64,000 bases of DNA from Bacillota bacterium (lineage in GTDB: Bacteria > Bacillota > Clostridia > Oscillospirales > Oscillospiraceae): positions 17,040-81,039 of the forward strand of contig JAQXVF010000045.1 in NCBI GenBank assembly GCA_029224785.1. Reading direction: 5' to 3'. The translations under genes were made by a program, and so were the position numbers. Shown here one piece after another: positions 15,886 to 19,718 of the stretch. Position 1 is the stretch's first letter; every line of letters starts with the position of its first letter. The notes beneath the pieces were generated by a model that had not been told where the DNA came from, did not search any database, and worked only from the letters and a program-made list of their open reading frames with translations.

Positions 15886-16662
15886 TCAGCCTGCCATGGA
15901 TTTACGCATTGCGGAAATGGCGCCTTTTTCCAGCCGGGAGACCTGGGCCTGGGAGATCCCCACCATCTTTGCCACTTCCATCTGGGTCTTGCCGTCGAAA
16001 AAACGCAGGGAGAGGATCTGTTTTTCCCGGCGTCCCAGCTTGCGGAAGGCATCCCGCAGGGTGATGCGCTCCAGCCAGGTCTCATCGGTGTTCCGGGTGT
16101 CGCAGACCTGGTCCATAACGGTCAGAGGATCTCCGCCGTCGGAATACACCGGATCATACAGGCTTACCGGGGCACAGATGGCATCCAGAGCGGTGCTGAC
16201 CATCCGGGCAGGCAGCTCCAGGGCGTTGGCGATCTCCTCCAGCGTGGGATCCCGGTCGCTTTGTGCGAGGAGGGCCTCCTTGCACTGCAGCACCCGGTAG
16301 GCAATGTCCCGAAGGGACCGGGAGACCCGGATGGCGCTGTTGTCCCGGAGGTAGCGCCGCACCTCCCCGGCGATCATGGGAACACCGTAGGTGGAAAACC
16401 GGACGTTTTTCTCCGTATCAAAATTGGCGATGGCTTTCATCAGCCCGATGCAGCCCACCTGGAACAGGTCGTCGGGGTTTTCGCCCCTGCGGTCAAAACG
16501 GGAAATGACACTGAGGACCAGCCGGAGATTTCCCTCGATCAGCCGGTTGAAGGCGCTTCGGTCACCGGATTTGGCTTTTTTCAGCAGATCTGTGGTTTCG
16601 CTCTGGGTCAGCGTAGACAGTTCGGCGGTGTTCACACCGCAAATCTCAACCTTTCCCTGCAT
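15886..16662 (-). CDS. sigG: RNA polymerase sporulation sigma factor SigG
   Basis: KVEICGVNTAELSTL N-terminus, DDLFQVGCIGLMKAIANFD, VPMIAGEVRRYLRDNSAIRVSRSLRD, MEVAKMVGISQAQVSRLEK; start re-set to 16662. Confidence 0.95.
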   Translation of the reverse strand: MQGKVEICGVNTAELSTLTQSETTDLLKKAKSGDRSAFNRLIEGNLRLVLSVISRFDRRGENPDDLFQVGCIGLMKAIANFDTEKNVRFSTYGVPMIAGEVRRYLRDNSAIRVSRSLRDIAYRVLQCKEALLAQSDRDPTLEEIANALELPARMVSTALDAICAPVSLYDPVYSDGGDPLTVMDQVCDTRNTDETWLERITLRDAFRKLGRREKQILSLRFFDGKTQMEVAKMVGISQAQVSRLEKGAISAMRKSMAG

Positions 16663-16898
16663 AAGAATCCTCCTTGGTGTGGTGCTAACAGTATTTCCCG
16701 GCGGAAAAAAATGATACCTGCGGGGTTTTGTCTGATTTTCACAAAAATTATTTTCCGCAAGGAAACGAAAGGGAAAGATTCCGGCGGCATCGGCCAGATC
16801 CGTCAAGATTTTTCTTCTGAAAAGGGATAGGGTAGACAAAACTGCACCCTGTTTTTTTTCCCGCGAAAAAGAGGAAAAGGCAAGGGGAGAAAGGGCAT

Positions 16899-17126
16899 TT
16901 TTCCACAGAAAAATGGACAGGCATTGTTGTGGAAAAAACTGTTCAGGGTGTGGAAAACAGAAACTTTTCCACATTCTCCACAGGGTTTTCCACAACGGTT
17001 TTCCACAGGACAATCCCCGGACAGCCGGCAGGGACCGTTTACATAAGAGATTTGACCCCTTTTTCCAAAAAGCCAACTTTTTCTCTCTCGGTATTTCGCC
17101 CATAGACTGTCGGGGGGTGTGGAAAA
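16899..17126. promoter_or_regulatory. Cluster of DnaA-box-like 9-mers (7x TTTTCCACA, 1x TTCTCCACA)
   Basis: + strand: 16899, 16965, 16974 (variant), 16986, 16999; - strand: 16928, 16949, 17118; all but the variant match relaxed DnaA box TTWTNCACA. Confidence 0.7.
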
Positions 17127-17295
17127 AAGGACTTGACAGGAAACGGAGCCTCTCAACCGGCCCAAGAGCATCCGAAAAACAGACGGAGAAAAAGAAAAAT
17201 ATTTTTAAAAAAAGGATTGATTTTAGAGAAAAAATTCGTTATAATGAGTAACTGCGTAAAGCTGTACTTTACCATTGGAATTGGAGGTGGAACGA

Positions 17296-17559
17296 ATGCC
17301 CAACATTAAGTCCGCAAAGAAGCGCGTAGAGCTGAGTAAGGTTGCTTACGAGAAGAACAAGGCCGACAAGTCCGAAATGAAGACTGCTATTAAGAAGTTT
17401 GACGCTGCCGTCAGCGGCGGAGACAAGACCGCTGCCCAGGCTGCCTACAAGCTGGCAGTGAAGAAGGTGGACCAGGCTGTGATCAAGGGACTTCTGCACA
17501 AGAACAATGCCGCCCGGAAAAAGAGCAGCATGACTCTGAAGCTGAACACCCTGGCTTGA
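17296..17559 (+). CDS. rpsT: 30S ribosomal protein S20
   Basis: MPNIKSAKKRVELSKVAYEKNKADKSEMKTAIKKF...VDQAVIKGLLHKNNAARKKSSMT; promoter TTGATT-N17-TATAAT at ~17217-17245. Confidence 0.96.
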   Translation: MPNIKSAKKRVELSKVAYEKNKADKSEMKTAIKKFDAAVSGGDKTAAQAAYKLAVKKVDQAVIKGLLHKNNAARKKSSMTLKLNTLA

Positions 17560-17575
17560 TTCTCTCTGAAAATAT

Positions 17576-17606
17576 CTCCTTCCGATCCGTCGGAGGGAGT
17601 TTTTTC
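17576..17606 (+). terminator. Terminator of rpsT
   Basis: CTCCTTCCGA-TCCG-TCGGAGGGAG followed by TTTTTT. Confidence 0.88.
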
Positions 17607-17663
17607 ATTTTGTCCGGTGGTGGACAGACGGGCGGTCCTGTGGTACACTGAAAAAAAGGGGGG

Positions 17664-19718
17664 ATGTCCATGGCCCGGCTCACAGATCCGATCTCCATGC
17701 TTCGGGGGATCGGCCCGGCAAAGGCGAAGCTGTTTGAACAACTGAACATCCGGACTCTGGGGGATTTGCTCTGTCACTTTCCCCGGGGATACCAGGACCG
17801 GACGAAAATGGTGACCGTCTCCCAGCTTCAGGCGGACGAGCCTGCCTGCTTCCGGGCGACGGTGATGAATACTCCCCGGACGGCCCACATCCGTAAGGGG
17901 CTGGATCTGACCCGGGTTCAGGTGGCGGACCACTCCGCCAGGCTGACTCTGACCTTTTTCAACCGGAAATTTACGGCGGATCAGCTTCAGTACGGGAAGG
18001 AATATGTGTTCTACGGCGCTCTCAGCGGCGATTTTTCCGGCTATCAGATGACCAACCCGGTGTTCGAATCTCCCGATGCGCCTCCCGGAGCTACCCGAAG
18101 GATCCTGCCGGTCTATCCGCTGACGGCGGGGCTGACCAATGGCGTGGTGCAGAAGGCGGTGGCCCAGGCGCTGGCCCTGTGCGATCCGCCGGAGGAGATC
18201 CTGCCGGAGCGGATCCGGCAGCAGTACGGCATTCTGCCTGCCGAAACCGCTTACCGGGCCATCCACGATCCTCAATCCATGGAAGAGGCGGAGCAGGCAA
18301 AAAGAAGGATGGTTTTCGAAGAATTCTTCGTGTTCTCTGCCGGCCTGGCCATGATGCGCAGCGCCCGCACATCGGTGCAGCGAATGCCTTACGAAAACAC
18401 GAACCTGAGGCCGCTGCTGGATGCGCTGCCCTTTACCCTGACATCCGCCCAGATGCGGGCGGTGGAGGAGATCCGGTCAGACCTGTGCGGGGGAACGGTG
18501 ATGAACCGACTGGTGCAGGGAGATGTAGGCAGCGGCAAGACCATGGTGGCGGCGGCAGCAGCATGGCTGGCGGTGCAGAACGGGGACCAGGCGGCGCTGA
18601 TGGCACCTACGGAGATTCTGGCAGAGCAGCATTATGCTACGCTGTCGAAGCTTTTGACGCCTCTGGGGGTCCGCACGGCCCTGCTGACCGGTTCTCTGAA
18701 AACAGGGGAGAAGCGGGAGCTTCGCCGGAGGCTTGCGGCAGGACAGATCGACTTTGCTGTGGGCACCCACGCGCTGGTTACGGACGCTACGGATTTTTCC
18801 CGGCTGGGCCTGGTGATCACCGACGAGCAGCACCGCTTCGGCGTTGCCCAGCGGGCGGCCCTGGCGAAAAAGGGTCGAGATGTGCATACTCTGGTCATGT
18901 CAGCAACACCCATTCCCAGAACCCTGGCCATGCTGATGTACGGAGATCTGGATGTATCCATTCTGGATGAGCTTCCTCCCGGGCGTCAGGCGGTGGACAC
19001 ATTCCTGGTGGGAGAGTCCTACCGGCCCCGGATCAATGCCTTCATCCGAAAACAGGCGGCGGAGGGGCACCAGTGCTTTGTGGTGTGTCCGGCGGTGGAG
19101 GAGAATGAGGAGCTGGATCTTCGCTCCGCCGCGGCCTGGGCGGAGACGCTGCAGAAGACCGTGTTCCCGGACCTGCGGGTCATGCTTCTCCATGGACAGA
19201 TGAAAGCCGGTGAGAAAGAGCGGATCATGGGTGCCTTCTCCCGGGGAGAGGGGGACGTGCTGGTGGCCACCACGGTGATCGAAGTGGGAGTGGATGTGCC
19301 CAACGCTACCCTGATGGTGATTGAGGACGCAGACCGCTTCGGCCTTTCCCAGCTTCATCAGCTTCGGGGCCGGGTAGGCCGGGGGGACAGCAAGAGCTAT
19401 TGCATTCTGGTGTCCCACAACCGGAATCCTGAGACCCTTGCCCGGCTGAAAGCCCTGTGTGCCACGTCGGACGGCTTCCAAATCGCAGAAGAGGACTTGA
19501 AAATGCGGGGACCTGGTGACTTTTTCGGCTCCCGGCAGTCCGGGCTGCCGGCTTTTCGGGCAGCGGATCTGGGGTTTGGCCTGCAGACCATGAAAGAGGC
19601 CCAGGAGGCATCGGTCCGGTGGATCGACAGCCGGGAGTATGTCCAGAGCCGGGAGGGACAGGCCCTTTTGAAGCGGATCGCTGCCCTGTTTGCCGGCGGC
19701 GAGGCCACAATGAACTGA
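17664..19718 (+). CDS. recG: ATP-dependent DNA helicase RecG
   Basis: RLVQGDVGSGKTMVAAAAAWLAVQNGDQAALMAPTEILAEQHY, ITDEQHRFGVAQRAAL, QLRGRVGRG, MRGPGDFFGSRQSGLP. Confidence 0.97.
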   Translation: MSMARLTDPISMLRGIGPAKAKLFEQLNIRTLGDLLCHFPRGYQDRTKMVTVSQLQADEPACFRATVMNTPRTAHIRKGLDLTRVQVADHSARLTLTFFNRKFTADQLQYGKEYVFYGALSGDFSGYQMTNPVFESPDAPPGATRRILPVYPLTAGLTNGVVQKAVAQALALCDPPEEILPERIRQQYGILPAETAYRAIHDPQSMEEAEQAKRRMVFEEFFVFSAGLAMMRSARTSVQRMPYENTNLRPLLDALPFTLTSAQMRAVEEIRSDLCGGTVMNRLVQGDVGSGKTMVAAAAAWLAVQNGDQAALMAPTEILAEQHYATLSKLLTPLGVRTALLTGSLKTGEKRELRRRLAAGQIDFAVGTHALVTDATDFSRLGLVITDEQHRFGVAQRAALAKKGRDVHTLVMSATPIPRTLAMLMYGDLDVSILDELPPGRQAVDTFLVGESYRPRINAFIRKQAAEGHQCFVVCPAVEENEELDLRSAAAWAETLQKTVFPDLRVMLLHGQMKAGEKERIMGAFSRGEGDVLVATTVIEVGVDVPNATLMVIEDADRFGLSQLHQLRGRVGRGDSKSYCILVSHNRNPETLARLKALCATSDGFQIAEEDLKMRGPGDFFGSRQSGLPAFRAADLGFGLQTMKEAQEASVRWIDSREYVQSREGQALLKRIAALFAGGEATMN

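Follow-up and report, generated by a model that had tools for sequence, protein, structure and literature searches.

A cluster of DnaA-box-like repeats between sigG and rpsT

The window (the whole stretch of DNA that was analysed, 64,000 nt in length) lies on contig C45 of the genome assembly of a gut bacterium, which amounts to 1.96 Mb in 89 contigs and is 96% complete. Within it, the divergent genes sigG and rpsT are separated by a gap of 633 bp that contains a dense cluster of DnaA-box-like 9-mers (Table 1). An earlier note on this DNA had counted seven exact copies of TTTTCCACA and one TTCTCCACA within 228 bp, and we recovered all eight with the same coordinates and strands. The exact TTTTCCACA word occurs nine times in the window, against 0.57 copies expected from dinucleotide shuffles, none of which (0/100) reached nine. 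Genome-wide there are 83 copies, versus 12 of the reversed word; the densest other spot is oriC, and even there only three exact copies fall within 200 bp. The concern that the 9-mer might simply be common in intergenic DNA was therefore not borne out. The gap has the attributes of a DnaA-box cluster (DBC), in that a short piece of intergenic DNA outside oriC contains several words that closely match the DnaA box of the organism itself.

The gap also contains the promoters of both neighbours, that of sigG being one whose class we take from its likeness to the known sigmaF consensus. The core of the array lies approximately 300–345 bp from the start of sigG and 290–330 bp from the start of rpsT and overlaps neither promoter, and the box cluster is at least approximately 180 bp away from the conserved sigmaF-type sigG promoter. 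Further conserved blocks are visible in the consensus of the relatives: CTTGACA (17132–17138), which is nearly invariant and has no −10 element behind it, CCCACTTTTT (17073–17082), CGGTGACGTAACACG (16837–16851) and CCAACTTTTT (16804–16813). A long open frame (15886–17103) running upstream of sigG was judged to be due to chance, as conservation falls in short blocks and not in codons. An Rfam scan of positions 16000–18500 returned nothing meaningful.

Table 1. Genes, promoters and sequence elements at the sigG–rpsT junction (positions in the window)
Feature	Position	Strand	Basis or remark
sigG	15886–16662	−	NF006071 SigG over cut-off
sigG promoter GGTATC...GGAAATACTG, sigmaF/sigmaG-type	16689–16718	−	Conserved, 56 sequences
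Outer DnaA box TTTTCCACA	16899–16907	+	Exact word; offset not kept in most relatives
Outer DnaA box TTTTCCACA	16928–16936	−	Exact word; lineage-specific
DnaA box TTTTCCACA, inverted relative to core	16949–16957	−	Often near-box TGTTGAAAAC/TGTTGATAAC in relatives
Core DnaA box 1 of tandem array, TTTTCCACA, offset 0	16965–16973	+	Each column approximately 90% identical or more, 56 sequences
Core DnaA box 2, TTCTCCACA, offset 9	16974–16982	+	56-sequence alignment
Core DnaA box 3, TTTTCCACA, offset 21	16986–16994	+	56-sequence alignment
Core DnaA box 4, TTTTCCACA, offset 34	16999–17007	+	Only some relatives have it
Companion box GTTTACATAA (reverse complement TTATGTAAAC), probable XerD-binding half-site	17037–17046	+	Conserved as GTTNACATAA
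Degenerate TTTGACC, counterpart of relatives' TTCGACA block (= Spo0A-box word TGTCGAA)	17051–17057	+	Alignment of relatives
Outlying DnaA box TTTTCCACA	17118–17126	−	TTTTGCACA here in several relatives; lineage-specific
rpsT sigmaA promoter TTGATT (17217–17222)-17-TATAAT (17240–17245), AT-rich upstream	17217–17245	+	Conserved, 56 sequences
rpsT (ribosomal protein S20)	17296–17559	+	TIGR00029 over cut-off

Conservation of the core array

We compared 80 related sigG loci and aligned 56 sequences; most of the genomes used in this study are metagenome assemblies. At most of the 80 loci rpsT is divergent from sigG and the boxes lie in between. The core, TTTTCCACA-TTCTCCACA-N3-TTTTCCACA(-N4-TTTTCCACA), is among the best-conserved blocks of the alignment, level with the promoters of both genes. 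Its offsets (0, 9, 21 and 34) are kept at the junction in dozens of relatives, contrary to the lack of conservation that the earlier note had said would tell against its reading, and at least two strict boxes are present in 21 of the 23 genus members in which sigG is adjacent.

The element can also be found at a distance from either neighbour. Two genes separate it from rpsT in L034, and a GPR protease-like gene (named by a curated model for L047) does so in L047 and L079; at all three loci the boxes and a companion box, described below, are still together. On the other side, two genes stand between the element and sigG in L042, again with boxes and companion box together, and a single gene in L081, where a reduced form with few boxes retains the companion box. 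Such persistence beside either neighbour argues against the element being a fixed operator of sigG or rpsT. The GPR germination-protease-like gene is a neighbour of rpsT (L047, 3744–4575; L079, 3702–4707), an order that recalls rpsT–gpr of B. subtilis.

In genomes in which sigG and rpsT lie apart, the array was not found upstream of rpsT, and upstream of sigG it is mostly absent. Some link between the array and the junction therefore exists, and this counts against the explanation that we favour below.

The repeats share the words of the organism's own oriC

The earlier note saw no dnaA gene in the window, and dnaA indeed sits on contig C8, where the gap between dnaA and dnaN includes an AT-rich stretch and forms a canonical oriC. 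This oriC contains TTTTCCACA three times, TTCTCCACA twice and TTATCCACA once. Among closed genomes of the family, rpsT lies mostly 12–48 kb from dnaA (approximately 13–38 kb in G285, G296, G298, G307, G323, G336 and G347), and those with rpsT near dnaA have neither a sigG–rpsT junction nor the array. A search for a closed genome of the genus, or for one with the junction, found none.

In a few relatives the boxes at both places have changed in the same way. All core sigG–rpsT boxes of L068, L069 and L072 are TTTTGCACA, and oriC in the genome of L072 (G003) likewise consists mostly of TTTTGCACA and TTATGCACA. The array of G261 and G321 (genus g14) is composed of TTCTGCACA, TTATGCACA and TTTTGCACA, and G stands at position 5 in 4/4 of their oriC boxes, versus C at both oriC and the array in approximately 15 other genomes. 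The change from TTNTCCACA to TTNTGCACA is seen both at oriC (L094, L251, L256 and L259) and at the remote cluster (L195, L196, L068, L069 and L072), and it may represent one or two evolutionary switches. This co-variation supports the idea that the same DnaA protein reads the boxes of oriC and of the sigG–rpsT gap.

Because oriC has the same words, and because the sigG–rpsT boxes changed along with those of oriC, the repeats are best read as DnaA boxes, a reading to which their deep conservation also contributes. A transcription factor other than DnaA with a DnaA-box-like site would fit the fact that TTTTCCACA is one base off the classic TTATCCACA, but such a protein would explain neither the presence of the same word in the organism's own oriC nor the co-switching of position 5, and we consider it very improbable.

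The earlier note had also raised the possibility of a non-canonical replication origin. A second origin could be suggested by the number of boxes (eight, equal to that of oriC), by the divergent genes and by the AT-rich tract alongside. The tract (17185–17250) is present as described, but it corresponds to the conserved rpsT promoter rather than to an origin element. GC skew is positive over all 64 kb, and neither a skew switch, nor a position linked to dnaA, nor an AT-rich unwinding element beside the boxes was found in the window. With a canonical origin elsewhere in the genome, we give this idea almost no credence.

Recurrence of the array at other loci

A scan for the three-box pattern (steps of 9 and 12 bp, one mismatch allowed) matched 89 of 249 genomes of the order, often at two loci per genome, versus 0 matches for the reversed pattern. 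The genome studied here has a second array (C9:57192; L130) on the 3′ side of tsaD/gcp, approximately 165 bp from the end of the gene. Arrays also lie by tsaD in L142, L143, L146 and L149, before mnmE/trmE in L131, upstream of dnaA in L140, inside oriC in L148 and at various other genes; the neighbours of L143, L149 and L131 were named by curated models, and the rest were read by eye. According to PMC4447404, the 3′ ends of gcp/ydiF and the DNA upstream of trmE are among the strongest B. subtilis DnaA sites outside oriC, and the second array of our genome occupies the same place as the first of these.

These findings bear on the suggestion that DnaA serves as a transcription factor at this site, with the cluster tying the expression of sigG (sporulation) or rpsT (growth) to the state of replication, in the manner of sda. 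The array is nearly confined to loci at which sigG and rpsT adjoin in divergent orientation, Spo0A-type boxes stand near it in many relatives, and B. subtilis DnaA regulates sda and other genes beside its clusters (PMC4447404). However, the core array is remote from both gene starts and overlaps no promoter, the element survives the insertion of genes on either side, and tsaD has the same array at its 3′ end, a place in which a promoter is not expected. Transcriptional control is in our judgement unlikely, and the proposal of the earlier note that the boxes couple replication to sporulation by controlling sigG is disfavoured, both by the distance to the sigG promoter and by the way in which the element outlives separation from sigG or from rpsT.

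A companion box resembling the XerD arm of dif

Shortly after the array in the alignment stands a second conserved word, GTTNACATAA. The form TNACATAA is present in 67 of 68 homologous flanks, with 77 copies versus 2.3 in shuffles, a comparison that overstates certainty, as do all shuffle counts for the sigG–rpsT set, since the related genomes are not independent. A cleaner test is provided by 48 arrays from other loci, which played no part in defining the box, though several come from related genomes: here there were 23 copies versus 2.8 (100 shuffles, maximum 7), an approximately eightfold excess, with the box present at 14 of the 48 arrays.

The complement, TTATGTNAAC, is identical to the XerD arm of dif, free base included (E. 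coli TTATGTTAAAT, B. subtilis TTATGTAAACT, Frankia TTATGTCAAGT). Published dif sequences carry the XerD arm TTATGTNAA(C) (PMC3025954), and GTTTACATAA at 17037 matches it. The base after GTT is free and ACATAA is fixed; the former is also the variable base of known XerD arms. This pattern led us to reject a −35 element, for which there is also no −10 behind, as well as a PhoP, WalR or GlnR box.

In approximately 11 genomes, tandem copies of the box at an interval of 14 bp precede either xerD or its upstream neighbour gene (XerD named by a curated model), and our own genome has one copy in such a position. The arrangement GTTNACATAA-N4-GTTNACATAA, followed by a degenerate third repeat, can be seen at L172, L173, L263–L272 and L274. 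Tandem boxes ahead of xerD suggest that XerD regulates its own expression. The identity with the dif arm and the tandem copies upstream of xerD together make XerD the best candidate for the protein that would bind the companion box; another regulator of the xerD operon is possible.

Several observations restrict how the box can be read. The genome contains 38 copies of GTTNACATAA versus 4 of the reversed word, and most of the matches inspected lie inside genes, so the word is not specific by itself. No XerC arm adjoins the companion box, and the box is not part of a 28 bp dif. A search of our genome for a B. subtilis-like dif with up to three mismatches found none, and a looser search returned mainly the tandem boxes again (L315 clearly upstream of xerD) and not the dif of this lineage. 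On closed chromosomes, tandem XerD-like repeats lie roughly opposite dnaA (L321, L323, L322 and L315, in G323, G296, G307 and G347), so that xerD and its surroundings may be close to the terminus. A passage in PMC12322038 cites B. subtilis XerD as unloading SMC at the terminus. At the array, SMC unloading or an architectural role is possible for XerD.

A third type of word accompanies the array in many relatives. The Spo0A-box word TGTCGAA was found 26 times in the flanks of 68 relatives versus 3.3 expected (with the same overstatement of certainty), and 9 times versus 2.7 at the arrays of other loci. Next to the array in our window there is no match to TGTCGAA, and the corresponding word is degenerate. 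Spo0A boxes also occur in the oriC of B. subtilis (PMC5295017).

A model for the function of the element

With some reservation, we favour the reading, made from sequence comparison, that the sigG–rpsT element is an extra-origin chromosomal DnaA-box cluster that acts on replication initiation and not on the neighbouring genes, with a probable XerD site beside it. Such a cluster would probably help to time DNA replication. In our model, the three or four head-to-tail boxes, at fixed steps of 9, 12 and 13 bp, would hold a small DnaA oligomer; the array would take DnaA away from oriC by titration, perhaps with datA-like inactivation, and DnaA binding would delay initiation. Passage of the fork doubles the site, and re-initiation would be damped as a result. 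A second chromosome protein, most likely XerD, would bind the box beside the array, and Spo0A boxes come next in many relatives.

The suggestion of the earlier note that this could be a titration site like the clusters of B. subtilis gains support from the oriC words, the co-switching, the deep conservation and the sister arrays at gcp/tsaD and trmE/mnmE. Passages in PMC5295017 and PMC13220808 describe early initiation upon loss of six B. subtilis clusters. The opposite effect would be expected of a DARS-like site, at which DnaA oligomers on the array swap ADP for ATP and so promote initiation. Three fixed core boxes with an inverted box alongside recall DARS, where core box I is inverted relative to boxes II and III (PMC5742627). 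However, the three core boxes here run head to tail, an arrangement shared by datA and oriC (PMC5742627), many relatives have lost the inverted box or have only a degenerate form of it, and a passage in PMC5295017 describes the B. subtilis clusters as acting negatively. We consider reactivation of DnaA at this site improbable.

The fixed 9/12 bp three-box grammar with its GTTNACATAA companion is described here. To our knowledge, B. subtilis, E. coli and Streptomyces are the main sources of known DnaA-box clusters outside the origin, and IHF, datA and DARS are absent from Firmicutes. A fixed grammar that is kept in place in dozens of Clostridia, at loci in common with B. subtilis, offers a comparative handle on which features of such clusters matter. 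The companion box is a testable candidate for the site of a second protein at Firmicutes DnaA clusters and, if it is a XerD site, would tie the control of replication initiation to XerD. More tentatively, the extra-oriC DnaA arrays and XerD half-sites of Oscillospirales, with Spo0A boxes in many sporulating relatives, might form a recurrent composite element that couples the initiator DnaA to XerD, a recombinase and SMC unloader. If this were true, a few dedicated chromosomal sites would bring together the control of the initiator, the segregation of the chromosome and the onset of sporulation.

Comparison with known systems

The element shares with E. coli DARS1 and DARS2 a three-box core with fixed spacing, and DARS2 likewise has regulatory sites for other proteins; it differs in that its three core boxes share one orientation, whereas box I of DARS is inverted. 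The likeness to E. coli datA lies in head-to-tail DnaA boxes outside oriC (here at 16965, 16974, 16986 and 16999, all on the forward strand) together with the site of a second DNA-binding protein, putative in our case (PMC5742627). The second protein at datA is IHF, which B. subtilis does not have (PMC13220808), whereas our companion box looks like a site for XerD, and the layout is different.

As in the oriC of B. subtilis, Spo0A-type words lie close to DnaA boxes in many relatives, but these words are outside oriC, and the one in our window is degenerate. With dif and the B. subtilis XerD sites used for SMC unloading at the terminus, the element has in common that its companion box is identical to the XerD arm TTATGTNAA(C) of known dif sites, but the box has neither a XerC arm nor a 28 bp dif around it, and it is found at DnaA clusters and not only at the terminus.

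Lastly, the DBCs of B. subtilis (gcp/ydiF, trmE/jag, ywlC, ywcI, yydA and sda) are likewise intergenic, multi-box and outside oriC. No site at sigG or rpsT is among the strong B. subtilis DnaA peaks of PMC4447404, so the sigG–rpsT array itself has no counterpart in the same place, and the 9/12 bp three-box grammar with its companion is a property described in this analysis. The sister arrays, both in our own genome and in its relatives, do stand where the B. subtilis clusters stand, 3′ of gcp/tsaD and 5′ of trmE/mnmE.
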